Shown: piece by piece, positions 1-57,263 of the stretch | Layout of the letters: each line of letters opens with the position of its first letter | Position numbering within the stretch: the stretch's first letter is position 1 | Assembly (NCBI GenBank): GCA_037576195.1 | Contig: CM075103.1 | Span: 15,252,001 to 15,316,000, forward strand | From: Phytoseiulus persimilis | Lineage: Eukaryota > Arthropoda > Arachnida > Mesostigmata > Phytoseiidae | Direction of reading: 5' to 3' | Length of the DNA: 64,000 nucleotides | Made by a program: the position numbers and the translations under genes | Notes under the pieces: generated by a model | The model's input: only the letters and a program-made list of their open reading frames with translations | What the model was told of the DNA's origin: nothing | The model's database searches: none

Positions 1-1340
1 ATGAGTACCTTCCAAAACAGTGGTACAAGCAAAGCCAGCCTACCGACAACGGCTCTTCAGAACAGGCTTACCCTTGCTCTTGAGCTCAAAATCACATGGT
101 GTCGATGGACTCGAAGATCCACTGCTGACCTTCCCTTTCTCCTCGCTTCGACCCCCCGCCAGAGACCTTGGCTGCTCGTACCGGGGAGTAACGTACGCAT
201 GGCCACCGTGCCCCCCCCCCCTGGGTACGCCACTGGACGCAACTCTCCCGACGTATCCTGACTCGAGAACCTCCTTAACTAGTAGCAATAGTGGCAATGC
301 CCTGGTCCCAGTTATGTATCGGATTTCCAGTTTTCATACGATCGGAGATTCATCGGTCGCCCTACCACATCACTACTCTCCCAAAAACGGAGTCCACAAG
401 GGAACCCAGGATCTTGAAAGTGATCCGATCCCCTCGAGAACAACGAACAAAATCATCCTGTATTCCCAGTGTGTCTTCTCAGCGACGACACCACAAATCT
501 GTTTCCAACCATGCTGCAAACTCTCTGATCCCAGAGACGCGACATCCACATGGTTCGCACACGACTGCACTGGACAGAGCGTTCTATCCCGGAATCACCT
601 CAACTCCCCATCTGAGAAACCACCCGAAGAAGCCAGAGACCCATGAGTGGAAACCAGACTCATGACGCCCAGAACATGATACCTCTCAACCGATCTCCCA
701 AAATACGCAACACGCAACTTGGCTCGCATCAATATCATCTCTATTCCAAAGAATCGACGTTCAGTGGATTTCAGGCAACGTTGGGACCTCCATACGAGAC
801 AAGAATTCGACAGTAACAGTCACACACACCTCGGAGAGTTCACCCCCAGAGCGCGACCACTCCTCTGAACCGTTTGCTTCGCCGCTTCCGTCGGCGAATT
901 CTCCCGGGGATCTTATCACCTCAAGAATAGCGGATGATCTACTGAAGAACGATCCACTGGATCTTTCCACGGATTCTTTCCGCTTCTTCATGTAAGTTTC
1001 AGTGAATGCTCGATACACATGCGCCACGGTGGGCCATGCGCGACTCGCAAACCCGCTAAACACTGTTCTCTCCCCGTCCTCCCCCGGGTCGGAATTGCTG
1101 AGCAATCGCTGCAAAACTGGATTTCCCACAAACTGAGGTCAACCCGCCGCCACGTGACCATGGAGAGTCGTATTGCGAGGGCATATTAGACATCGCGGTT
1201 CCCACGCGCTACTCAATACCGCGCTGCGCGGCGGGTAGCGCTAGTGTGCTATATTTTTCTACTGAACTTGAGGGAGTGAAATGATGTTCGCTCTCGCCTG
1301 GGAATTGGACGGAACTGCCTTCACTCCTTGGACCTGACAA
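1..1340. other. Anonymous sequence, no gene recognised
   Basis: Several overlapping open frames exist on both strands (the longest at 20-646), but they are low-complexity and Ser/Pro/Arg-rich. They show no domain, no start context and no codon pattern that separates them from shadow frames. I see no RNA gene and no inverted-repeat element boundary here. Around 1240-1345 the sequence leads directly into the 45-bp minisatellite without an evident junction motif. Confidence 0.5.
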
Positions 1341-1349
1341 GAGGGCGCT

Positions 1350-2205
1350 CTTGTCATGGTGCGCCAAGATGGTCAGGTTGGTCTCGGAATCACCCTTCCG
1401 GATTCGGGGAAGTGTGGTCAGATTTGCCCCGGAATCATCCCTCCAGACTTGGAAAGTAATGGTCAGATTGGTTCCAGAATCACCCCTCCAGGTTTGGAAA
1501 AGCATGGTAAGTTTGGCCCCGGAATCATCTCTCCAGGTTTGAAAAAGTATGGTAAGATTGGTCCCGGAATCACCCCTCCAGACTCGGCAGAGTAAGGTTA
1601 GATTTGTCTCGGGATCACCCCTCCAAGTATATAAGAGTATGGTCAGACTGGCCTTGGAATAACCCCTCCAGGTTCTTAAAGTTATGGTCCTACCAGAGTT
1701 GGAAAGTAATGCTCAGATTGGTTCCGAAATCACCCCTCCAGCTTTTGAAAAGCATAGTCAGACTCGTACCGGAATCACCTCTCCAGACTCGGGAGAGTAT
1801 GTTCAGATTGGTCCCGGAATCACCTTTATGTCTTCCAGAAAAAGTGCGGACAAACTGACTGACAAACGGACAGACTAAGCCGATTATATATATTATGGTC
1901 CTCTTGGTTCACGAATCACCCCTCCAGATTCGAAGAAGTGTGGTCAGATTGGTCCCGGGATAACCCCTCCAAGTATGGAAGAGTATGGTCAGATTGGTCC
2001 ACGGATCACCCCTTCAGATTCGAAGACGTGTGGTCAGATTGTTCCCGGAATCACCCATCCAGGTTTTGAAAATTATGGTCAGATAAGTCCCGGAATCACC
2101 CCTCCAGATTCGGACAAGTATGGTCAGATTAGTTTCGGAATCACCCCCATGACTTCGGGAGGAGTGCGGACAAACTGACAGACGAAGCCGATTATATATA
2201 GTAAG
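1350..2205 (+). repeat. Degenerate 45-bp minisatellite, two blocks, each with a conserved tail
   Basis: Diverged tandem units of 45 bp with the core CAGATTGGTC..GGAATCACCCCTCCAG. The first block (about 1350-1830) ends in a non-repetitive tail containing GTGCGGACAAACTGAC, a GACAGAC run and CCGATTATATATA (about 1835-1895). A second, shorter block (about 1896-2150) ends in the same tail (about 2155-2205). Because 45 is a multiple of three, long spurious frames run through in several phases (ITPP..IG-type peptides); these are not genes. The same unit, younger and nearly uniform, forms the arrays inside the hAT element at 3.4-8.7 kb. The same tail recurs in reverse at 47040-47100. Confidence 0.85.
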
Positions 2206-2868
2206 GATGTTTCCATCGCTTCTAAGCGTTCGGATGAGGCCCACCCCAGTTCTCCCTCTACGAACTCATTCGCATTATTGAAGGATGACTGGCCTAGTGC
2301 CCATTCGTCTGCCTCACGCTGTGATGTTTCCATCCTCTCTGGAAAGACCTCTGCATCCCGGAACCCACGGTACGACTTACTTGCAGTACGTCAGCGCGGG
2401 CACACATGTCGCCTTCCATTGTATCTTGGTTGTCTCAAACCCATTGAACTTCCACAGCGATTCGGCATACATTTGTGTAAGCGTTTTTGTGGCTTCCTCT
2501 TTCCACAGCTTCTCCTGCTCAGCTAGGTAGTTCCTGTCATTGCTTGGCAGGTTCGCAAGATATTCATATAGCTCCGCTCAAGGGATCAGTTGCCCCTAGA
2601 TTTCTAGCCCGGGGTTAACGCTGTTTGCTGGCTCGTTGAAGTCTATTGTTGCTGATTTTTTTGGGTCGAACACCAGGTTCAGCTCATTCCCCATCTCAGT
2701 GGTGATCTGCAGCAGCTGTTTCATCTGAGCCCATGTGTGAGACATAAGAATCAGACCATCGGCGTGAAGTATCCCGACCCTTCCCTTGGAAGCACATTCC
2801 GAAAGTATTTCTAGTGATCTAGGAACCCTCGTAGGCCTCAACTGGTTGAACCACAACATAACAAACAT
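2206..2868 (-). pseudogene. Non-LTR retrotransposon reverse-transcriptase fragment
   Basis: On the minus strand the translation from 2868 carries a decayed RT catalytic box (HADGLILM where FADDLVLM is expected), followed by the post-catalytic stretch with MKQLLQITTEMG and the FDPKKSA motif. After a stop near 2600 it continues in other frames with the thumb-like segment (NYLAEQEKLW, WKFNGFETTKIQWK) and the C-terminal motif WALG..FN.ANEFVEGELGW. The same order of motifs occurs in the better-preserved copy at 48976-49880 and in the 41-kb copy. The catalytic Asp pair is damaged and frames are broken, so it is non-functional. Its downstream side abuts the tail of the 45-bp array at 2205, suggesting the array was inserted into it or replaced its 3' part. 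Confidence 0.75.
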
Positions 2869-3390
2869 CTACTTGAGACTCATCTGGAGGACAGAGGTAA
2901 CGCAACTCCAAGGATCAGCGACAGTCGATATTCCATCTGGAGACATTTACTGTGGGACGTCTGATGCAGAGGCTGGTTATTCGGTACCTAAGGGGTTGAG
3001 CGGAACCAGTGGAAATCACACGTCGCGCTCATTTTCTCACGTTTTTCATTGCAAAGCGCGAATCACGTGTGGAGACTCTCGCACTGTTTGATGACTCAGA
3101 AAGCACTTCCGAGATGCTCTCGCAACGCGGGTCGACAGAGAAGTGTGCTTCAGCAAGCGCTGCGTCTTTTTTATTGGATTCGTGCAAAAGTTCTGAGCGC
3201 TAAACTTTGACAGCTCATAACTCCGCTCCCAGGAGTCGCAGAGAGATGATGGAATACTCAAAATACGCGGAATCCAGTCAACTTTCAGATGCTGTCGATC
3301 TGATTCAACGAACGGCCTGCTGACACCGACGGTTTTACTGGAAGGATCGGAATCGGAAAATCGCGATTTTTCAATTCCGACGGAACTAAG

Positions 3391-3398
3391 ATCATGAC
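3391..3398. repeat. Left 8-bp target-site duplication of hAT
   Basis: ATCATGAC immediately precedes the left terminus TAGGGGTCGCA. The identical octamer follows the right terminus at 8700-8707. Eight-bp duplications are the hallmark of hAT insertion. The flanking sequence on either side joins up to the undisturbed mariner-MITE sequence seen at 22262-22320. Confidence 0.92.
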
Positions 3399-3620
3399 TA
3401 GGGGTCGCAAAAATCCACGAGTCCGACTCGCGAGTCCGACGAGTCCTTATCTCTTGGACTCGTCGGACTCGTCGGACTCGCGAGTCCGGCGAGTCCACGA
3501 GTCCAGGTGAGGGCGCAAAATCTCGGTTACGGGTTCGAGTCCGAAAATCTCTGATTCTGAGCTAGTACGATCGGAAACGGAGGCTGACTTTCGTTTGAGA
3601 ATCACTGACGAGAGGGGTGA
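3399..3620. repeat. Left terminal inverted repeat of hAT
   Basis: Starts TAGGGGTCGCA, then a palindromic GACTCG/CGAGTCC cluster (about 3415-3505) that is longer than at the right end, then unique sequence through 3620 that is the exact reverse complement of the right end as far as I can follow by eye. It contains GGTTCGAGTCC (3532-3542), which looks like a pol III B box but has no matching A box. Confidence 0.85.
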
Positions 3621-4715
3621 TTCCGAGACCAATCTGGCCATTACTTCCCAACTCTGGAGGGGTGATTCCGAGACCAATCTGGCCATTACTTCCCAACTCT
3701 GGAGGGGAAATTCCGAGACCAATCTGAGCATTACTTTCCAACTCTGGAGGGGTGATTCCTAGACCAATCTGAGCATTACTTTCCAACTCTGGAGGGGTGA
3801 TTCCGAGACCAATCTGAGCATTACTTTCCAACTCTGGAGGGGTGATTCCGAGACCAATCTGAGCATTACTTTCCAACTCTGGAGGGGTGATTCCTAGACC
3901 AATCTGAGCATTACTTTCCAACTCTGGAGGGGTGATTCCAAGACCAATCTGCGCATTACTTCCCAACTCTGGAGGGGTAATTCCGAGACCAATCTGAGCA
4001 TCTTTTTCCAACTCTGGAGGGGTGATTCCAAGACCAATCTGAGCATTACTTTCCAACTCTGGAGGGGTGATTCCTAGACCAATCTGAGCATTACTTTCCA
4101 ACTCTGGAGGGGTGATTCCTAGACCAATCTGAGCATTACTTTCCAACTCTGGAGGGGTGATTCCAAGACCAATCTGCGCATTACTTCCCAACTCTGGAGG
4201 GGTAATTCCGAGACCAATCTGAGCATTACTTTCCAACTCTGGAGGGGTGATTCCTAGACCAATCTGAGCATTACTTTCCAACTCTGGAGGGGTGATTCCA
4301 AGACCAATCTGCGCATTACTTCCCAACTCTGGAGGGGTAATTCCGAGACCAATCTGACCATTACTTTCCAACTCTGGAGGGGTGATTCCGAGACCAATCT
4401 GACCATTACTTTCCAACTCTGGAGGGGTAATTCCTAGACCAATCTGAGCATTACTTCCCAACTCTGGAGGGGTAATTCCTAGACCAATCTGACCATTACT
4501 TTCCAACTCTGGAGGGGTGATTCCTAGACCAATCTGAGCATTGTTTTCCAACTCTGGAGGGGTGATTCCTAGACCAATCTGACCATTACTTTCCAACTCT
4601 GGAGGGGTGATTCCGGTGCCAATCTGAGCATTACTTCCCAACTCTGGAGGGGTGATTCCTAGACCAATCTGAGCATTACTTTCCAACTCTGGAGGGGTGA
4701 TTCCGTGATCAATCT
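3600..4715 (-). repeat. Left subterminal 45-bp minisatellite array (about 24 units)
   Basis: About 24 tandem 45-bp units, reading in reverse with cores CAGATTGGTC and GGAATCACCCCTCCAG. Units differ by a few substitutions (for example TCC/TAG/CAAG at the middle position, GAGCATT versus GACCATT). A continuous minus-strand frame of 374 codons runs through it with a 15-residue period, but the other frames are equally open, so this is a by-product of the 45-bp period rather than a protein gene. The array ends near 4710, about 60 bp beyond the transposase stop codon. Confidence 0.95.
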
Positions 4716-4775
4716 AACTCTACGGATTTTTATTGCTTTTGAAATTTGTTCCATGTCTTGTCTCTTTCTACGAAG

Positions 4776-6929
4776 TTATAGCATAGCGGTGTCGCGATAG
4801 AGAGCCCGAAGTACCACCAGGTTGTCGAGTGTTCTGGGGCTGAGGGAATTCCGAGCTTTTGAGCAAACGTGATTCATGATGCTGAACTCACGCTCAGCCT
4901 TCACTGACGTTGGCTGAACAGTCAGCAGTCGGTTGCAGCACGATTTGAGAATCATGCCATGTTGCTCGCCAGCTTCGAAACGTTTCATTTCCCGGAGTAT
5001 TCTTCCGGAGATCGGCTCCGCCTCGTACGGAGTCCTTGGCGAACGCAACGGCGTACTGAATACATTCTGGAAATTCATGGCGAACGAAGGCGTTGCGCTA
5101 GGCAAGAGCGCTTCCTCTCCGATGCCGCCAGAAACATTGTCAACATGCGCGATACCGTTGAGCAGGTTCCGAATCTCCGATTGGCTGAGCCGCGCGATGC
5201 CGAGCGATTCTTCGAAAGACCAGTCATACCTGGGGTCCAGGAGATATTGTAGGACACTCGAGTAGCCTGTCCTTCGTTTCAGTACTTCCACGGCCACCGA
5301 ATTGCTGAGAAGTATTGACAGACCCGAGTTAAGGTCGTGCAGGCATTGCAGGAGGGCGAGTATGATGCGGTCAGCATACACGAGGTTGGCCTGCGCAGAG
5401 CTGAGCATGTCTATAGCGGTTTTGAAAGGCTTGATCGCCGCCAGGATATGCTCCAAGTTCTGCCTCTCCTGTGCATTGATAGCACTCTCGTTTGAGTCCA
5501 AGAGAACTGTATTGATCGATGGCAGAATCAATAAGGCTCGCTCGAGCATTGCTGCCGTCGACGACCAGCGAATTTTGGTATCAAGAAGCACCTGGAAATG
5601 AGAAGAAAAGTTGGTTTAGCCGTCTACAAACCCCATGAGGATGATGACGTATATACAATGAATCGTCGCGAAATAAGCCACGAGCTACGACTGAACGCTC
5701 ACCTGGAGACTCTTGCCGTGGTTTTGCCTGGTAACTTCTCGAAGCTTGTGGCGCTTGGGGGCACTTCTCTTGATGAGTTTGAGGGTCTTTCGCAGCCGGC
5801 GCAAACTCGTCTTCACGGAGACGACCACTTCGTTCTCTCTTGCTTCGTCCTCGGACACAGCCGCGGCGAAGCATTGGAAGTCGCCGTCATCTGATTCGCC
5901 GTCCATGGAGTTTTTAGAGATGTCATCGCCGGATGCATCATCCAGGGAGCTTCGCGGCTTGGTCTCGGTTTCCATGTCCGTGTCGTCCTGGACGTCGTCG
6001 CCTGATGAAACGGCTGCCTCGTTCTCGTCGTCGCCTTCATCCACATCATCACTGGAGAACGTTTCACCGCGCTGCGAGATGGACACACTCGCCGATAGGT
6101 CGAGGACCTTCTGGAGAGCGATATGGAGGGCGTGAGCAAAACACAGCTGCGATTTCAATCCCAGCTTCGAAACGGTGCTCTTCATCACAGCTGCCCCGTC
6201 CGTTACAGCAAAGAAGCAGTTACGGATGTTCACTCCATACTCTTGTAGGCGATTTGTAACTGCCGCGGCGATGGTGTCGGCGTTCCCTTTACCGGCGAGT
6301 TGTATCAGTCCGAGGTATGTATCAGGGCCAGCATGATCATCACCGGCCGCTGGTTCTGTCCGCAGACTCAAGCTGATGTAGCTGTGCTGAGAATTGGATG
6401 CGACGGCCTCGTCGAAGCATATGGAGAAGCTTTTTCCTGACCTTTGGTACTGCTCCAACGAGTCTCGCACGCTCTTCCGAGCTTCGTTTGCCTTCGTGTT
6501 CACGATCGCTTTCACTGAGTTCGGCGATTTCGGCGAGGCTCGTCCGACAAGCGACTCGAGGAGGAGTTTGAAGGTCGGTGACGTGGCTATGGTCTTGAAG
6601 GGAACGTTATCCTCGGCCGCGAGTCTTGCGATGATGGTGTTTAAATCGTAGTGCACGGCAGCAGCATCGAACGCAGTTGACAATTGTGACGACTGTGACG
6701 CTGTCGCTTGCGCAACTCGCCTTGGGATAGATGGAGATGGCGGTGGGATCATGCAGTGAACAGTCCTGAGATGCTTTAGCATCGAGGTCGTTTGGCCCAT
6801 GTATGCCAACATCCTACGACAAATCCCGCACTCTGTCTTCACCACGTCGTCCGAGATCTGAACGAGTGTGAAGTGGCTCCACACCCAAGCTGAGAACCCT
6901 CCGAGTTCTGACGTATTCGCGGAAGCCAT
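4776..6929 (-). CDS. hAT transposase, two exons, about 680 residues
   Basis: Enzyme predicted to excise and reinsert the surrounding transposon, acting on DNA in the nucleus. Exon 1 (6929-5703) encodes residues 1-409 and exon 2 (5591-4776) the remaining 271 codons. A BED zinc finger is visible near the N-terminus (Trp15/Trp17, Cys34, Cys37, His53, His58; spacing C-x2-C-x15-H-x4-H). The hAT catalytic core follows: Asp near 173 (CFDEA), Asp near 244 (VTDGA), and the CFAHALH motif near 263. A very acidic Asp/Glu/Ser stretch (about 290-350) separates it from the region beginning D.KIRWSST in exon 2. The C-terminal dimerisation motif (PTSVKAEREFS ... LSPRTLDNLVVLRAL) is complete. I chose ATG 6929 because the GTG further upstream is not a plausible eukaryotic start. 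There are no internal stops. The gene lies between two inverted 45-bp arrays inside a bounded transposon. Confidence 0.88.
5592..5702 (-). other. Phase-0 intron in the hAT transposase gene (111 bp)
   Basis: On the minus strand the donor reads CTCCAG|GTGAGC (exon ends at 5703) and the acceptor reads CTTCTCATTTCCAG|GTGCTT (exon 2 begins at 5591), with a pyrimidine-rich tract before AG. Exon 1 to 5703 is an exact number of codons and exon 2 opens in frame at 5591, so removing the intron joins the two hAT halves without a shift. The intron itself contains stops in the exon-1 frame (the first just after 5690). Confidence 0.85.
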
Positions 6930-6941
6930 TGCGAGTAACAC

Positions 6942-7810
6942 GATTCGAAGCTGAACTTACTCGAACACCAGCGAAGGAGTTTGTGGCGCTGATCGGGATC
7001 GGGTTGAGAGCTCGGAGTTCGCTGGGACTACACAATGAGGGAGTGGATGGATAGTCTCACGATTCGTCCGAAAGAACAGTGATTCCTTCAGTCTCGACGC
7101 CTCTTTTTATTCGCTTCGCTCCCCTCTCGTGAGGTCTCTCTCTTTCTGCCCGCCATATTTTCCCCCCTGAGCGTTCGTTGTTTCTCCGGCCTTCTGAACC
7201 GTGCTCGTTCTCAGATTTGTTGACGGACATAGCGAAAATTGTAAACGAGCGACCCCTAGTATAGCGGTACAATCCAAAGACGATCACATCTACGCCGCCA
7301 ATTAGATTGCATTGTAATTGGTAGCCAGAAGGCAGTCAGATGTGCCCCCATGTGAAACATGTGCAACATGTGCAGGCGGCGAAGTCGACACCGCGGTCGG
7401 GGCGAGATTTGAATCTATGGAGAAACACCGCAAGCACCGTCTGGCGGAGCCCAATCAGGAGAATATGGCAAAATCGTTCGTTGCTTCCTAGCGGCGAAAT
7501 CAGGCCGTTCCTCTAGATCTAGATCTGAAGAGAAACACCGTGTGGAGTACGGTCTACGGGGTCCTCACTCGAGTTTAGGACGTTTCGAGGCCAGATTGAA
7601 GATCGACACGGAAAAAGATGATGGGCGATGATTTGGTTGAACACCTCACAACTGCACTTAGCAGACTAACTCTTTATTGTTGTTCTCGGGGGAGAGGCGA
7701 CGTTGTCTCGACATTCGAGGCTCGGAAGACGCGCGAATATATCGGTCATCACAATTGACACACCGCAAGCACCCCGTCTACTCTACCAGGTCTATTCCTA
7801 GCCCGACTAA
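6942..7810. other. 5' leader / promoter region of the hAT element
   Basis: About 870 bp between the transposase start and the right array. It has no convincing frame. A motif ACACCGCAAGCACC recurs (about 7423 and 7760, with a shorter version near 7535). An internal copy of the terminus, GCGACCCCTA, lies at 7250-7259 in the same orientation as the true right end; it has no matching left partner or target duplication nearby. Promoter elements are not identifiable by eye. Confidence 0.5.
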
Positions 7811-7825
7811 GCTTCGCTCGAGTCC

Positions 7826-8545
7826 TCCAGAGTTGGGAAGTAATGCTCAGATTGGTCTTGGAATCACCCCTCCAGAGTTGGGAAGTAATGCTCAGATTGG
7901 TCTTGGAATCACCCCTCCAGAGTTGGGAAGTAATGCTCAGATTGGTGTTGGAATCACCCCTCCAGAGTTGGGAAGTAATGCTCAGATTGGTCTTGGAATC
8001 ACCCCTCCAGAGTTGGGAAGTAATGCTCAGATTGGTCTTGGAATCACCCCTCCAGAGTTGGGAAGTAATGCTCAGATTGGTCTTGGAATCACCCCTCCAG
8101 AGTTGGGAAGTAATGCTCAGATTGGTCTTGGAATCACCCCTCCAGAGTTGGGAAGTAATGCTCAGATTGGTCTTGGAATCACCCCTCCAGAGTTGGGAAG
8201 TAATGCTCAGATTGGTCTTGGAATCACCCCTCCAGAGTTGGGAAGTAATGCTCAGATTGGTCTTGGAATCACTCCTCCAGAGTTGGGAAGTAATGCTCAG
8301 ATTGGCACCGGAATCACCCCTCCAGAGTTGGAAAGTAATGCTCAGATTGGTCTAGGAATCACCCCTCCAGAGTTGGGAAGTAATGCTCAGATTGGTCTTG
8401 GAATCACCCCTCCAGAGTTGGGAAGTAATGCTCAGATTGGTCTTGGAATCACCCCTCCAGAGTTGGGAAGTAATGCTCAGATTGGTCTTGGAATCACCCC
8501 TCCGGAGTTGGGAAGTAATGGCCAGATTGGTCTCGGAATCACCCC
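7826..8545 (+). repeat. Right subterminal 45-bp minisatellite array (16 units)
   Basis: Sixteen 45-bp units, nearly uniform, containing GTAATGCTCAGATTGGTC and GGAATCACCCCTCCAG. It is inverted relative to the left array. Variants include one unit with GGTGTTGG and one with GGCACCGG. The last unit has the same AATGGCCAGATTGG variant as the innermost-terminal unit of the left array, so the terminal end of both arrays is homologous unit by unit. The 306-codon frame through it is a period-three by-product. Confidence 0.95.
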
Positions 8546-8699
8546 TCTCGTCAGTGATTCTCAAACGAAAGTCAGCCTCCGTTTCCGATCGTACTAGCTC
8601 AGAATCAGAGATTTTCGGACTCGAACCCGTAACCGAGATTTTGCGCCCTCACCTGGACTCGTTGGACTCGCGAGTCCGAGTCCGAGTCTGCGACCCCTA
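8530..8699. repeat. Right terminal inverted repeat of hAT
   Basis: Ends in TGCGACCCCTA at 8699. Preceded by GGACTCGCGAGTCC, a perfect palindrome (about 8667-8680), and by about 120 bp that mirror 3498-3620 on the left. The GACTCG cluster is shorter here than on the left (length asymmetry of about 50 bp). Confidence 0.85.
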
Positions 8700-8707
8700 A
8701 TCATGAC
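8700..8707. repeat. Right 8-bp target-site duplication of hAT
   Basis: ATCATGAC, identical to 3391-3398. The following CCCTGTTCTCTCTCC resumes the host mariner-type sequence found undisturbed in the copies at 22262-22300 (reversed) and 44960-44985. Confidence 0.92.
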
Positions 8708-9534
8708 CCCTGTTCTCTCTCCAGAATCTTGAAGTTCCTGGAAAATTGAGCTGTTTCTAAAAAAAATCGAGCGATTCGGCCGCTGCCAAGCGGAGCTATC
8801 GGCCTCGGAAGTTTCGATTTTTAGGCCTCTCGATCTATGTTGAGTGACTAGGAAAAATATGGGCTTTCTCAAGAAATGCTTCCTCTTCACCCAAAGACGA
8901 GCCACTTTGAGATGCCGCATAGCACACCTTATAGCTGGGCTCAAAGCTTCGAAAACATGTCATCTGATCCAATTTTTGGTTCGCTGCCACCGGCACGAGT
9001 TTCCCTGGAAACTTTTGGAAAGCCTGAAATCGGATCATACGACATGTTTTTGAAACCTTGATCTTGGGCACCGTGATACGCGGCTATAGCATGTGCTGTG
9101 CAGTGTCTCGAATTGGCTCGTCTTTTGGGGGAGATGGAGCATTTTTGGAGAAAGCCCATTTTTCGTCGCAATCACTCAGCATAGATCGAGAGGGCCAAAA
9201 ATCGAAACTTACGAAGCCGATATCTCCCCTTGGCCAGGGCCGAATCGCTCCATTTTTTTTTTTGAAACAGCTCGATTTTCGACGAAGAGAAAACAGGTAA
9301 ATAATATTACAATTGGTTTCGCTGGAATCGAAAACTCGCGATTTTTCGATTTTCGACCCTCTAAGTAAAACCGTCGGTGTTGGCAGGTCGTTTGTTGAAT
9401 CAGAACGCAATCAGCAGCATCTGGAAGCTGACTAAATTCCGCATATGAGTACTTCCTAATCTGTCTGCGACTTCTGGGAGCGGAGTTATGAGCTGTCAAA
9501 GTTTAGCGCTCAGAAGTTTTGCACGCACCCAATA

Positions 9535-18720: not shown

Positions 18721-18939
18721 ACTGACCATACTTTTCAAAACCATAATGCTGACCCAGTAAAGATAAAGGAAAGTGCCTCGATGCCAGGGAACGCCGTCCA
18801 ACCGGGCGTAGCGCGGCTGACTCCAGTCGGCCGAAGGCCGGCTGCTATTCGATGTTTATCACATTATGGAATAATCTCACGAGTTCTCCTTCAGCGACGA
18901 GATCTTCGGACTTAACAGTCAGAGAGAATGTTGTAGATA

Positions 18940-21140
18940 ATAACAGATTTATTGCGTGTTGTTACACATGGTGCTCTGCACCTCCCAGTTTGTCGAGTCC
19001 GGGTCTCATCTCACACACTATAGCATGATATCTTGGACAGCTCTGACCGCAGTATTTACATGAACACATATCACTTGGCGCATGACAATTCTCTCTACTA
19101 CACAGTTGATTGTGGAACCCGTGTATGAGGTACCTAGCGAAGAGGTGCCTTCTTGGGTACATTGCGGCACTCCATATTCCCGGGCGTTTGAGGATTGGAG
19201 CCCCTTCAAGCTCCGTGCGTACCGCCCCGACCTTATGCTTCCAATCCTTGATGATTTCGAGGAACGCTGGCGTATTTTCTGTCTTGAGTCTTCTTCTCAT
19301 GATCTCCATTAAGGGTACATCACTGTCCGACAGCACGTACAAGTAGCGATTTCGTGCGCTTTTGTGGACTCGAAAGGCTCGTTTGAGATAAGTGCAGTAG
19401 CCGCTCTCGAGTTCTCGGAAACTCACTGTGAGATGTCTCCATACGCGGTCCATACCGTGAGAAAGTTTTGGAAGGGCTTTTATGAGAAACAACTTTATGG
19501 CGGTGGAGATAGACAATTTGTGGGGGTCCCCGGTGTCTCCGTACATTGTAGCGATCGTCTTGCAGCAAACCTCTTCGACATGCTCCGTGAAGCATGTCCC
19601 AGTTGTCTGCAAGCGAAGCCCGAGGTATTCTGCTGATGTCACGAATTCCAATTGGTTTCCTTTCCACAAAGTTCGGCCATGTCGGCTGAGTCGGCCTCCT
19701 CGTCTAATCCTCATCACCACTGTCTTCGAAGCATTGAGTCGTAGTCCTTCCTCCTCAAGATGTTCGCTCACTACGTCGAGCATCTTTTGGAGTTGGCTCC
19801 GGCTTCGATGGAGAATGATAATGTCATCCGCAAACATTGCGATCGTCCCTGTTCTACACTCGTCAATGACCTTCGCGGGGAGCTCTGCGAGTAGGAGTGA
19901 GAACCCCGTGCAGCTTAGTGGATCGCCTTGTGGTGTTCCGCAGTTCTGTTGTATGTCAACGCTGATTCCTGCTCCGATGTTGACTTCGGGGAAGTCTTCG
20001 TGGTAGAAACTCTCAATGACTTTGAGAAGTTGCCAATTGACTCCTGCTCGCTTGAAGGCGCTCACCATTCTCTGTCTTGGTGCTAAGTCGAAAGCTTCCT
20101 GACAGTCTATCAGAATGGCATACGTATGCCCCTTCGTGGCGAGACTTCTCTCTATTTGCGACATCACGACGTGGAGCGCGTCTTGCGTTCGCGATCCCCC
20201 TGAAGAGATCCATGTTGCTCTTTGAATCCGCTGGCTTGCCTTTGAACAGTAGCGTGAGTCGGGCCCGATGCCACGAACTCGGTACTCTTCCTCCTAGCAT
20301 GATATTGTTGAAGGGACGCGAGATCAGACCCGCTGTGATGTGGATGGTCGCTTTCCAGTGTTCGTAGTATAGTCCGTCAGGGCCCGCACTCTTTCCTTTC
20401 GGCAGAGACCTGACGACTTCTTGAACTTCTAAGGGCGTCCACGGGACGTTGATCAACCACTGGTCGAAGCTTAGCGGTCATTCGACATTTGCTCCTGGTT
20501 GTGCTGTTTCCGGATCGAATAGAAGTCTCTCAAAATGTTCCCTGACCGACTCCGAGGTTGCATTGCAGACGCTTCTGTTGTTCCGTTCGATTATGTATCG
20601 GTATGGTCCTTCTTCCGCGTTTGATACCATCTGCCGTTCGTCTTCTTCAGCGGTTCGCAACTTACTCGCCTTGACTTCCGCGTGGTATTCTATCCGGGCG
20701 CGACGGTATCCTTCCTTGGCCTCCTGTGCTCCGTTACGCAGTCTTCTCAAAAGATCCTTTGCCTTGTCGAGTAGTTGTCGGCACTCTGTGGTGAACCATC
20801 GTTTCGTCTGTTTTCTCTGTTTCGCCTTTCGGAGGCCGCATGACATGAATTTAACGATGATTCCTTCGGTTATGTCCGGGTCTCCGATTTCGATTCGCTG
20901 GTCGTGTCTCACGTGCTCCAGTTCGTTCTCCATCGATTGAAACTGAATTATTCTGAAAAACTGAATCATTGAGAATGTTGTAGATGAGAACCCAAAGCCT
21001 ATCACGATGTCAGCGGGTCGTTTCGAGTTTCCCCCGGTCCAGGGGGAAAATTTACTTTCTGACACCTCGAGGTTGCGAAGGTGGATCAGAGGCGTAGTTT
21101 GGATTGATGATTGCCCATTCCACGTGCAGCTATGAGTGAT
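18940..21140 (-). pseudogene. Non-LTR retrotransposon ORF2 (reverse transcriptase), frameshifted
   Basis: Reads right to left. The pre-RT linker (EGIIVKFMSCGLRKAKQRKQ, RRARIEYHAEVKASKL, about 20880-20660) ends at a stop near 20470. The RT N-terminus (EVVRSLPKGKSAGPDGL, about 20430-20370) is in a second stretch. After a frameshift near 20220-20160 the palm follows in a 401-codon frame (20167-18962): LIDCQEAFDLAPR, QGDPLS, and the catalytic MFADDII (about 19830), then the thumb and a C-terminal CKYCGQSC....H....C zinc finger (about 19050-19010). The endonuclease is at best a scrap. The polyadenylation hexamer AATAAA lies just after the stop (about 18951-18946). The catalytic FADD is intact; the damage is limited to shifts and the missing 5' end. 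Confidence 0.85.
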
Positions 21141-46615: not shown

Positions 46616-46819
46616 ACCAGGATATTCATCAATGAGATCTGGTGTAATTGTGGGAGTTGCTTGCGTAGGTGCTCCTCTGCGTTCGTGAATAGCAACTCCA
46701 CCTGTCGACCACGGGGTCAAACGTGGACCCCCTGAGCGACTTCGATGAAGTTTGTGGACTGCCGTGCCCCAGGGGGTCGATCACCGACCTTCGATTTTTC
46801 GGAGCGATTCCGGGAAAAT

Positions 46820-46960
46820 CAGACCTTCACTTTCCAAGTCTGGAGGGGTGCTTCCGGGACCGATCTGATCATTACTTTCCCAGATTTGAGGGGTGATTCC
46901 GGGACCGATCTGACCATTACTTCCCAAGTCTGTAGAGGTGATTCCGGGACTAGACATCAT
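46820..46960 (-). repeat. 45-bp minisatellite, diverged, three units
   Basis: Reverse-orientation units with GGGGTGATTCCGGGACC and TCTGACCATTACTT. It stops at a non-repetitive 75-bp interval before the next block at 47040. Confidence 0.8.
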
Positions 46961-47039
46961 TTTCCGTAGTACTGCAAATGAATTCCCGTACCAGCCGGTA
47001 CAGAAGTTAATTTTTCGTACCCTGGATCCGAGGATCCTC

Positions 47040-47435
47040 ACTACTTATGATCGGCTTCGTCTGTCAGTATGTCCGCATTCCTCCTGGAATACATGGGGGT
47101 GATTCCGGCACCAATCTGAGCATACTTCTCTGAGTCTGGAGGAGTGATTCCGGAACCAATCCGACAATATTTTTCCGAGGCTGGAAGAATGATTCCGGGA
47201 CCAATTCGACAACACGTTGCCGAGTCTGGTGGGTGATTTCGGGACCAATCTGACAATATTTTGCCGAGTCTGGTGGAGTGATTCCGGCAGCAATCTGACA
47301 ATCTTTTGCCGAGTCTGGTGGAGTGATTCCGGGACCAATCTTAGGATACTCTTTGGAGTCTGGAGGGGTGAGTCCAGTATCGACCTGACCATACTTTTTG
47401 GACGCTGAGGAGGTAATTCCGGAGTCCATCTGACC
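47040..47435 (-). repeat. 45-bp minisatellite with conserved tail, reverse orientation
   Basis: About eight diverged units (GATTCCGGGACCAATCTGAC, GAGTCTGGTGG). Its low-coordinate end carries the tail seen at 1835-1895 and 2155-2205, here reversed (ATGATCGGCTTCGTCTGTCAG, TGTCCGCATTCC). The tail therefore marks one fixed end of the repeat family. Confidence 0.85.
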
Positions 47436-48237: not shown

Positions 48238-48628
48238 CCAGATTCGGAGAAGCATGGTCAGATTGGTCCCAGAACCACTCCTCCAGACTCGGCAAAATGT
48301 TGTCAGATTGGTCCTAGAATCACCCCCACGGACTCGGAAAAATATTGTCAGATTGGTCCCAGAATCACCCCTACAGACTCGGAAAAATATTGTCAGATTG
48401 GTCCTGGAATCACCCCTCCAGATTCGGGAGAGTATGCTCAGATTGGTCCCGGAATCATCCCTTCAGACTCGGCAAAATATTGTCAGATTGGTCCTGGAAT
48501 CAACCCATCAAACTCAGAAAAGTATGCTCAGATTGGTCCCGGAATCACTCCTCCAGACTCGGAAAAAGATTGTCCGATTCGTCCCGGAATCACCCCTCCA
48601 AATTCAGAAGAATATTGTCTGGAATGAG
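48238..48628 (+). repeat. 45-bp minisatellite, plus orientation, about 8-9 units
   Basis: Diverged units with TCAGATTGGTCC and GGAATCACCCCTCCAGA. Frames of 157-163 codons pass through it in all three plus phases, showing they are by-products. Confidence 0.85.
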
Positions 48629-48964
48629 AGTTTCGCTCCAGTCGAGTTTGAGGCCGATAGAAATTCGGTTCGTTGGCGGAGGGAAGTTTCCTTCTTCTTC
48701 TCTTCGGCCAGCGTCGAACCAGCCGATGGGATTCCTTGTTGGTAAAGAACTCCGCCAGCCAGGAGAATTTACACCGCACCGATATCTAGTTCTCCTTGCA
48801 TCTCCTGGGGCGGAATGATCTCCTTTGCGCCGCCCGCCGCTAAAGAGCGAGAAATAGGCGATAAATCTCCTCAGGAGGAGGCTCGCTCTCTGGCTGGCTC
48901 GCTCGCTCGTTCGTTCGGCCCCTCGTCAGCTAGCCGGCCTGGCGGCTAACGCACCCCTTCATCA

Positions 48965-49195
48965 CCCCTTCAGACTCAGAAGAGTAAGGTCAGATGGGTC
49001 TCGGAATCACCCCTCCAGCCTTGGAAGAGGGTGGTCAGATTGGTCCCGGAATCACCTCTCCAAACCTGGGAGAGGATGGTCAGATTGGTCCCGGAATCCC
49101 CCCTCCACCTTTCGAAAAGTATGGTCAGAGTGGTCTCGGAATCACCCCTCCAGACTTGAAAGAGAATGGTCAGATTGGTCTCGAAATCACCCCCC
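48965..49195 (+). repeat. 45-bp minisatellite, plus orientation, about 5 units
   Basis: Units with GGTCAGATTGGTC and GGAATCACCCCTCCA, ending in a C homopolymer (49190-49200) that abuts the LINE ORF1 zinc-knuckle segment on the other strand. The preceding interval 48640-48960 has no gene; it contains a GCTC/GCTG-rich run (about 48885-48945). Confidence 0.85.
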
Positions 49196-50367: not shown

Positions 50368-51661
50368 TCATTCGTCATCATTGTCCGTGTCACACTCCTC
50401 GAACCCTTCAGTTTCGCGGAGTGTCTCCCCGATGTTTCCGGCTTCCACAGTACCGTTCGCTGATAGCGGCCCGCGATCGACGTTTGTTCTCATTAGCTTG
50501 CTCCAAGCGTTCTTCAATGTCTCTGGTTTCACGGACTCCCATGCTTCTGTGAGCATGTAGCAAGCGTCTTTCAGAATGATCAACTTAGAGAAGTTTTTCA
50601 TCGCATTCTGATCTGAGTCGTCCAAAGCGAATAGTCTAGACCCGAGGCACCTACGATACGCTCGCTTCAACGTTTCGATCAGACACTGATCCATGGGCTT
50701 AAGGATGGATGTAACGTTCGGATGCAGATTCATAACGCTGAAGAATCCGTCGTCTCTTCGAAGTGAATCCTGTGAGGGGTGGGACGGGGCATTGTCTAGA
50801 ATGAGCAGGACTTTGCCCCGTTTCCCGGTGGATTCCTGATTCTTCTTCACTTCCGGTATGAACGTGTTTTCATACCAATCCGTGAAAATGTCTCGTGTCG
50901 TCCATGCCTTGGTCTGGCTCCTGTACACCAGTGGCAGCTTCTCATTCTTGAAGCATCTCGGGTTCTTCGATCTCCCGATTAAAAACATGGGAATCCTGTG
51001 AGTTCCAGTTGCGTTGGCGCACACCATCACCGTGACACGTTCTTTCCTGGACTTATGGCCCGGTGCTGCTTGCTCACGACGCGCCACCAGAGATTTGCTC
51101 GGGAGTGCCTTGTAGAACAGTCCTGTCTCATCAGCATTGTAGGTGAAGTCCGGGTCATACTCTCCAGCCTCAATGAACCTTCTGTAGCTGTCGACGAAGA
51201 ATTCTGCCGCAGCTGTGTCTGACGACAAACTCTCCCCTTACCATTCCGATTTCACGGATTCCGTGGCGTCCTTCGAAGTTCTCCAACCAGCCTTGGCTGG
51301 CTTTGAAGTTAGGATCACCTCCGAGTCTTGAGTTGAAATCAAGTGCTTTTTCTCGTGAAATGAAGCCTGACAACGGAAATCCCAGCAATCGTTTCTGAGT
51401 GAACCACGTGAAGAGTGCGGCTTCCAGCATTTCGTTTCTGGTCTTTTTCATCGATTTGATATCTACCGCGAGGTCTTGCTCTTGGTGTGTGTTCATGACC
51501 GCCACAATGGCCTCGGAATTTTTCTTCAGATAGGAGAGAGTGGACCTTGTAACACCATGCTCATCTGCTAACGATGAACCCGAGACGCCACGTTCCAGGT
51601 CTTCGATGATCTTGGCCCTCTGTTGAACAGTCAACACTTTCTTCGGTTTTCGACCAGACAT
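50368..51661 (-). pseudogene. pogo/Tigger transposase with a single frameshift
   Basis: ATG at 51661 (MSGRKPKKVLTVQQR). Part 1 holds a Psq/CENP-B-type helix-turn-helix (AKIIEDLERGVSGSSLADEHGV, about residues 17-40) and the second CENP-B-like binding motif (ASQGWLENFEGRHGI). At about 51230-51240 the frame shifts by one base at GGTAAGGGGAGAG. Part 2 (51228-50368) contains the whole DDE_1 domain: YNADETGLFYK (first Asp), LLILDNAPSHP (second) and LKPMDQCLIETLKRAY (third), then an acidic C-terminus ending DTDNDDE. Apart from that one base nothing is broken, so it may be a very young pseudogene or an assembly or sequencing error. An intron is unlikely, as no acceptor is near. Confidence 0.88.
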
Positions 51662-56789: not shown

Positions 56790-57263
56790 AGCGAGTTCTG
56801 GGGAAAAACCGCTTCATCGCCGATCTTCAACTGTTCATATCTCGGCCCCGCAAACTCGCATCGGGATGAAACTTGCCCTGCGAGTAGACGATGGATAGGA
56901 GTACTTTCAGCGATATCTGAGAAAGTGGTCAGCCTTCTCCTTCTTGGTAGACCAACCAACTCTTCCATTTTACTCGACCAGAAAAGTGGTTTCCGGGACC
57001 CGCTGCCTACGGCGTTCGATAGCCCTTAAGAAGAACTTCACAACGGTCCTCTTATCGGCGCTGTAGCTCCACTAGTTCCCGAGATATGAGCATTTTGAGT
57101 TTTCAAAAATCGATCGACCAGTTCTATGCTTCGGCAGGCGGCCATCGTAGAACCCGCCTCAGATACCCGGGTTCACCCGAGGCGGCCATCGTAGAACCCG
57201 CCTCAGATACCCGGGTGCACCCGAGTCTGGAACCGGGTATCATACCCGGTCCTGCGACCCCTA
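56790..57263. repeat. Non-autonomous hAT-like end with 44-bp duplication
   Basis: Ends TGCGACCCCTA at 57263, identical over 11 bp to the right terminus of the complete hAT. It is preceded by a hairpin (ACCGGGTAT/ATACCCGGT, about 57231-57250) and by two 44-bp direct repeats (57137-57180, 57181-57224; GGCGGCCATCGTAGAACCCG). A left terminus is not found, so the element is either truncated or its left end is diverged beyond recognition. 56790-57110 is unclassified, with inverted-repeat-style sequence. Confidence 0.5.

Follow-up and report, generated by a model that had tools for sequence, protein, structure and literature searches.

What does a transposon gain, if anything, from carrying a minisatellite on either side of its gene? 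The question is raised by a hAT element of 5,301 bp at positions 3399-8699 of the 64-kb stretch of Phytoseiulus persimilis DNA analysed here (the window; G000:C3:15252001-15316000), in which a transposase gene on the minus strand lies between two large arrays of a 45-bp unit in mirror orientation. A first-pass annotation had proposed that these arrays are amplified binding sites for the transposase. Having compared the element with its relatives throughout the genome (181 Mb in 127 contigs), we favor a different reading, and give it a probability of roughly two in three: the element is a foldback-like hAT transposon whose arms are a passenger minisatellite, common to at least three element types, and not a transposase-specific switch. 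The passenger reading fits better because different transposase families and different kinds of element have the arrays in common, because array length varies, and because minimal copies have none.

Structure of the element

By its structure the element is a hAT transposon of foldback-like architecture, and its transposase gene is open and looks autonomous. From the left it begins with an 11-bp terminal inverted repeat (TIR; TAGGGGTCGCA, 3399-3409, plus strand), followed by family-specific subterminal repeats of the GGACTC / GAGTCC type, with the palindrome GGACTCGCGAGTCC, which form a putative transposase binding region (3410-3496, plus), then by an inner inverted block of 115 bp (3497-3611, plus) and by the first minisatellite array, on the 3' side of the gene (3612-4715, plus; 24.5 copies, 93% match). 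Beyond the gene, on its 5' side, come the mirror array (7824-8547, minus; 16.1 copies, 97% match), the second inner block (8548-8662, minus), identical to the first, the right-hand subterminal repeats (8663-8688, minus) and the right TIR (8689-8699, minus), also of 11 bp and without a mismatch to the left one. Exact copies of the 8-bp target site duplication, ATCATGAC, abut the element at 3391-3398 and 8700-8707. The first-pass annotation had correctly recognized the perfect termini, the duplication and mirror arrays of about 24 and 16 units. Its near-identical inner repeats of about 120 bp correspond to an identical block that is slightly shorter, and the arrays are not the ends of the element, as it had supposed: the left array begins 213 bp from its end of the element and the right array 152 bp from its own. 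The inverted arms measure 839 bp and are 95% complementary, and with their arrays of about 25 and 16 units they are arms of the foldback type.

A transposase tree and pairwise identities split the element and its relatives into three families, A, B and C, of which the window's element belongs to A. Its gene consists of two exons on the minus strand (6929-5703 and 5591-4776, the latter including the stop) that encode 680 residues, separated by a 111-bp GT-AG intron (5592-5702); in support of the intron, a family-B frame without interruption runs through the exon junction in alignment with no break. Exon 1 encodes a BED zinc finger (PF02892, 5.6e-7) and exon 2 a hAT dimerization region (PF05699, 2.9e-5), both above the Pfam cut-off. 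The element is structurally complete, as had been claimed from the sequence at first sight. The BED finger is also found in a family-B frame (L025; PF02892, 5.5e-5). Hermes is the best solved relative, at an E-value of only 0.076. In alignment, the FDEA and VTDGAAVM blocks are common to the A and B transposases (the aligned C frame stops short of both), and an ER-x-FSIMN block is conserved across A, B and C; these blocks may include residues of the catalytic D-D-E of an RNase H-like core. Elsewhere in the window (50368-51228) lies a DDE_1 transposase fragment (PF03184, 2.4e-41), which we take to be of the pogo/Tigger type.

A single insertion

When the element and one copy of the duplication are removed and the flanks joined, the joined sequence finds 49 rows in the genome, 39 of which bridge the junction at 81-86% identity; two of the other ten are the window's own flanks and eight are short inverted scraps. 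The best 40 of 345 candidates were scored, so that these counts are lower bounds. The joined flanks match uninterrupted, array-free copies of a host repeat, and the arrays and the gene therefore entered this dispersed repeat together: the element, complete with its arrays, arrived as one 5.3-kb piece and made an 8-bp duplication that conforms to nTnnnnAn. An 8-bp duplication with at most one mismatch, as expected of hAT elements, flanks 17 copies and is exact in 16 of them; position 2 is T in 15 of the 17, and position 7 is A in 16. This is the target pattern of Hermes, 5'-nTnnnnAn-3', as given in the passages cited (PMC10368747). Chance origin of the structure is excluded, because most of the joined-flank rows bridge the junction and the unit profile, searched up to an E-value of 0.01, matches neither the reversed window nor the one Markov-simulated window used as a control; the TIR itself has 291 exact copies genome-wide against 56 for a reversed control pattern.

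The first-pass annotation had held that arrays outside elements with intact duplications would speak against its proposal, and arrays do occur outside elements on a large scale, one of them about 0.2 kb beyond family-A copy L039, whose duplication is intact. Their presence might also suggest that the arrays in the window are foreign to the element, being ordinary genomic satellite that it happened to hit or an artefact of assembly. We regard this as highly improbable, given that the joined flanks match host-repeat copies free of arrays and that mirror arrays lie inside intact TIRs and duplications at several loci, in both families A and B.

The host repeat around the element (3301-3398 and 8708-8800) is dispersed, and two of its copies in opposite orientation are often separated by a few hundred bases, as at C4:9969939 and C4:9970528; it is perhaps itself a transposon with long inverted arms.

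Relatives and their array lengths

We read 21 family-A loci (the window's element and L039-L058), ten of which have both TIRs and the duplication, each with at most one mismatch. In genome orientation (left/right) they carry 25/16 units in the window, 17/30 in L039, 33/39 in L040, 6/15 in L041, 4/2 in L042, 5/14 in L045, 18/5 in L046, 5/0 in L049, 2/3 in L056 and 14/7 in L058. Three TIR pairs of family B were read, and two complete copies, B1 and B2, carry 55/8 and 43/33 units; C1:2052763/2057930 was dropped as a complete family-B element because its flanking octamers (GTCGTCGT and TCTGCGAC) are unlike. Five short TIR pairs (L068-L072) were read of the eight noticed among the matches listed, which cover the first 100 of the 291 TIR places. 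All five have a duplication, exact in four and matching at seven of eight positions in one. No 45-bp unit is present in L068 (60 bp) and L069 (86 bp), both of them family-B copies with exact duplications, or in L072 (754 bp), whose duplication is the imperfect one. The 60-bp and 86-bp forms each occur once in the genome, and are therefore no proof of mobility without arrays.

Across the 17 duplication-flanked copies, unit totals thus range from 0 to 76. Transposase sequence is found in eight of them (the window's element, L039, L040, L041, L042, L045, B1 and B2), and the other nine have no transposase match. The search for further copies that the first-pass annotation had proposed, bounded by the TIR and 8-bp duplications, therefore shows relatives that share the design at very different array lengths. 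It had also named copies lacking arrays as evidence against its model, and the only such copies are ones without transposase sequence (L068, L069 and L072); all eight transposase-bearing copies keep units on both sides. Beside the family-A transposase sequence of L057 stands an array of at least 81 units (4-3652), which reaches the edge of the fetched stretch.

A minisatellite common to distinct transposases

The three families share the 11-bp TIR, and their transposases have diverged far: identity is 0.46-0.48 between A and the array-bearing copies of B, 0.40-0.44 between A and C, and about 0.47-0.54 between B and C, against 96-99% among the family-A copies. In the B clade, arrays were found within 1.5 kb behind the gene at five of eight loci (L022, L023, L024, L026 and L029), the element ends lying outside the stretch read; L025 has one weak unit in this interval, and the more diverged L028 and L038 have no array there.

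The unit itself hardly follows the transposase. We compared 32 arrays from 21 elements (14 A, 5 B and 2 Helitron-like, the last described below), leaving aside arrays of fewer than four units, units in which at least eight positions are missing, and the family-A-like loci L047, L049, L050, L051, L052, L053 and L056; five free arrays were compared without being counted. Between different elements, mean unit identity is 0.886 for the 264 pairs from one family and 0.889 for the 221 pairs that cross families. For all copies it is 0.884 for A-A, 0.891 for A-B and 0.913 for B-B, the A-A mean being low because old A copies are included; for young copies only (6 A and 4 B) the values are 0.921, 0.916 and 0.934. 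These differences are tiny next to the divergence of the transposases. One unit consensus is common to several A and B copies; in L045 and L058, which are more diverged A copies, the units have diverged as well.

The unit is a genome-wide minisatellite, with large arrays also outside elements. Its core, GGAGGGGTGATTCC, has 36,441 exact copies in the genome and none for the reversed control, which at 45 bp each amounts to about 1.64 Mb, or 0.9% of the genome; this is a minimum, calculated with one core for every unit. Degenerate arrays of the unit lie elsewhere in the window at 46801-47344 (plus) and 48241-49193 (minus), in mirror order, as one old array-bearing element or several, and a relic of a Helitron-like tail lies within that region (47035-47108).

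A third carrier: a Helitron-like insertion in family C

Among the five family-C copies read, an array lies behind the transposase in L031 and L033, and not in L030, L034 or L035. Both arrays sit in the same insertion, 790 bp long in L031 and absent from L034 at the same site, and the two copies are counted as one insertion event; the idea that arrays are native to family C was rejected once this empty site was seen. On the other strand, the filled site in L031 reads CGAATA / TCCTTAC...GGCCGGCTGG / TGGCAG and the empty site in L034 reads CGAATA / TGGCAG. Helitrons start with TC and end in CTRR. The insert lies between A and T without a duplication, starts with TC and ends with a hairpin and CTGG, as a Helitron does, its exact last base being provisional because a related copy in the window reads GGCTGC at this point (18844). 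It consists of a head, an array and a tail and is too short for a Rep/helicase protein, and replicase-like domains occur elsewhere in the genome (101 matches to PF14214, the Helitron replicase-like family, which has matches in none of 14 control genomes). We therefore label it Helitron-like and non-autonomous; a helper may exist in the genome. One such tail has 226 exact copies genome-wide, and no Rfam family was found in L031, L033 or L060 up to an E-value of 0.1. The presence of the unit here counts against its being a transposase site, since a Helitron-like element should not use a hAT transposase.

Related remnants are seen elsewhere. Degenerate 45-bp arrays at window positions 1369-2147 end in the tail that has 226 exact copies (GACAGACTAAGCCGATTATATATA...), and the whole (1369-2211) is probably two nested or tandem remnants of the Helitron-like element. 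Near the start of C1, the largest contig encountered, an array of at least 5 kb (G000:C1:25521-30833) begins about 280 bp behind a Helitron-like tail. A copy of the Helitron-like head whose array is down to part of one unit stands at 18722-18844 in the window, following a reverse transcriptase frame (18962-20167; RVT_1, 2.3e-22) at a distance of about 120 bp.

Candidate binding sites

If the arrays are not what the transposase reads, better candidates lie closer to the ends. In the 110 bp behind the TIR, GGACTC occurs 5.81 times per end in family A (16 ends), ACCCGG 8.57 times in family B (7 ends) and GAACCG 9.0 times in family C (2 ends), against mononucleotide-shuffle means of at most 0.12 (0.06 for family A); since the motifs were selected from the most frequent 6-mers at these very ends, the counts are descriptive and do not amount to a test. 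Families B and C lack the A motif in their ends, families A and C lack the B motif, and the C motif is not exclusive, at 2.57 per end in family B. None of the three is present in the 45-bp unit. These family-specific short palindromic repeats are better candidate binding sites than the unit; for Hermes, the passages cited give a quasi-palindromic pair of subterminal repeats as the target of the BED domains (PMC10368747), and here a comparable contact would be expected at the palindromes. A separate family-B-like hAT end lies at 57136-57263 in the window, with a perfect TIR (57253-57263) and, in a block of 44 bp that is duplicated, subterminal repeats of the ACCCGGGT type; the window contains no partner for it at one mismatch or fewer.

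Against this background the original proposal, in which the arrays are amplified sites for the BED finger and their length tunes transposition, seems to us distinctly unlikely. It draws strength from the eight duplication-flanked transposase-bearing copies, all of which have units on both sides in mirror orientation, from a weak family signal left in the units, and from the sharing of AGGGGT between unit and TIR; the idea that repeats add binding sites has, moreover, already been proposed for Galileo and Tetris (PMC4079207, in the passages cited). AGGGGT is, however, the only 6-mer common to unit and TIR, and because 10% of shuffled units also share one we rejected this overlap as evidence for the origin of the unit. 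The proposal is further weakened by the sharing of the unit between families whose transposases are about 46% identical and with a Helitron-like element, by the existence of family-specific subterminal palindromes that are absent from the unit, by unit totals that start at zero, and by the precise placement relative to the TIR that the left-end BED sites of Hermes need in the passages describing them (PMC10368747).

Arrays that change while the core hardly does

The cores of the window's element and L039 differ at 14 of 3,108 aligned bases. Despite this near-identity, their 5' and 3' arrays, taken in gene orientation, hold 16 and 25 units in the window and 30 and 17 in L039, and in the 5' array of L039 a variant pair at units 5-6 recurs at units 15-16. 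In L040 (1381-8102, G000:C1) the core is inverted relative to the element's own ends and the duplication is intact, an arrangement that recombination within the inverted arrays would produce; core orientation is consistent in the five other family-A copies with a gene and both ends. In L046, which has no transposase match, the two arrays meet.

The arrays might still serve a function outside the transposase, for example by binding a host protein, by acting as promoter or enhancer, or by giving rise to double-stranded or PIWI-interacting RNA. Usefulness to any carrier would explain the presence of the unit in unrelated elements, namely in mirror orientation in two hAT families and again in the Helitron-like element, and a consensus held in common by several A and B copies agrees with it, as do the diverged units of the diverged copies L045 and L058. 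Array length is nevertheless very variable, with a strong reduction in L042 to 4 and 2 units, and as single-stranded DNA a two-unit stretch folds worse than 200 of 200 shuffles, so that there is no local hairpin, and a hairpin function of the unit was rejected. We consider a function of this kind unlikely.

Weighing the passenger reading

In the model we prefer, the transposase would recognize the 11-bp ends together with the short, family-specific palindromic subterminal repeats. The 45-bp arrays would ride along as passengers that grow, shrink and get overwritten through unequal exchange or gap repair against other arrays, and the elements would in turn carry the minisatellite to new places.

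Several observations weigh against this model. The transposase-bearing copies with a duplication keep their two-sided arrays without exception (8 of 8), in the same mirror orientation in A and B, and a mere passenger need not preserve so constant an arrangement. For 25 of the 32 arrays the nearest neighbor comes from the same family, where permutation gives a mean of 15.5 (p 0.0045), and young pairs from one family, A-A or B-B, resemble each other slightly more than A-B pairs do, so exchange is not free; free exchange of units between families thus lacks full support, and a residual family signal stands. Finally, the interiors of the short, unit-free copies could have been lost after insertion.

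Comparison with known elements

Foldback elements with tandem repeats in their arms are already known outside hAT, and Helitrons with satellite arrays are known as well. Galileo, of the P superfamily in Drosophila, is described in the passages cited as having long inverted arms with possible direct tandem repeats, strong length variation, 7- or 8-bp duplications and ectopic recombination (PMC4168063). Its transposase differs, belonging to the P superfamily and carrying a THAP domain; for one D. willistoni copy only, repeats are given, of about 140 bp; and the passages on it mention no sharing of repeats with unrelated element types. Tetris, a foldback element of Drosophila virilis, comes close in that its arm tandem repeats, variable in number, also form free satellite arrays, and its authors proposed that repeats of this kind supply extra binding sites and act as seeds for satellites (PMC4079207); a review table likewise lists it as a foldback element with arm tandem repeats (PMC9659126). 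In these passages Tetris is apparently non-autonomous, with Mutator suggested by its authors, and has 220-bp repeats that may derive from the outer TIR, whereas the present element has a hAT gene and a 45-bp unit common to another hAT family and to a Helitron-like element.

Within hAT, Hermes and other elements of the Ac type are the ones to compare. The passages on Hermes describe a BED finger, a hAT dimerization region, 8-bp nTnnnnAn duplications, short subterminal repeats and a palindromic pair near the TIR, all with counterparts here; the motifs in the ends of Hermes are short and dispersed, with no kilobase arrays in those passages (PMC10368747), whereas here two repeat systems follow one another. 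Helitrons with central satellite arrays, such as those of Crassostrea gigas, offer another likeness, since in the passages cited one array type occurs inside and outside elements and across different Helitrons (PMC12628747); the difference is that here the array also occurs in two hAT families, in mirror orientation. Among the titles and abstract openings that searches of open-licence PMC papers listed, no hAT element with kilobase minisatellite arms and no minisatellite common to hAT and Helitron elements is named. To that extent the first-pass view that no such hAT design had been described goes uncontradicted, while the design as such is found in foldback elements of other superfamilies, Galileo and Tetris. 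The TU elements of sea urchins may, we assume, be another precedent.

Implications

The locus tells apart two repeat systems that could readily be mistaken for each other at the ends of hAT elements: the palindromes at the tips differ by transposase family, and the long minisatellite hardly does. In the copies read, families A and B, with arrays in their arms, and family C, with an array only by insertion, also provide a natural comparison for the spread of satellites with transposons. One may tentatively go further, to a view that we hold at somewhat less than even odds: the minisatellite would be a passenger on at least two hAT families and a Helitron-like family, kept alike by exchange and brought to at least about 0.9% of the genome by two or more transposition chemistries, so that the transposons would be the vehicles of the satellite and not its owners. 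The elements described here also suggest that tandem arrays inside transposons are exchangeable between elements whose transposases are only about 46% identical.

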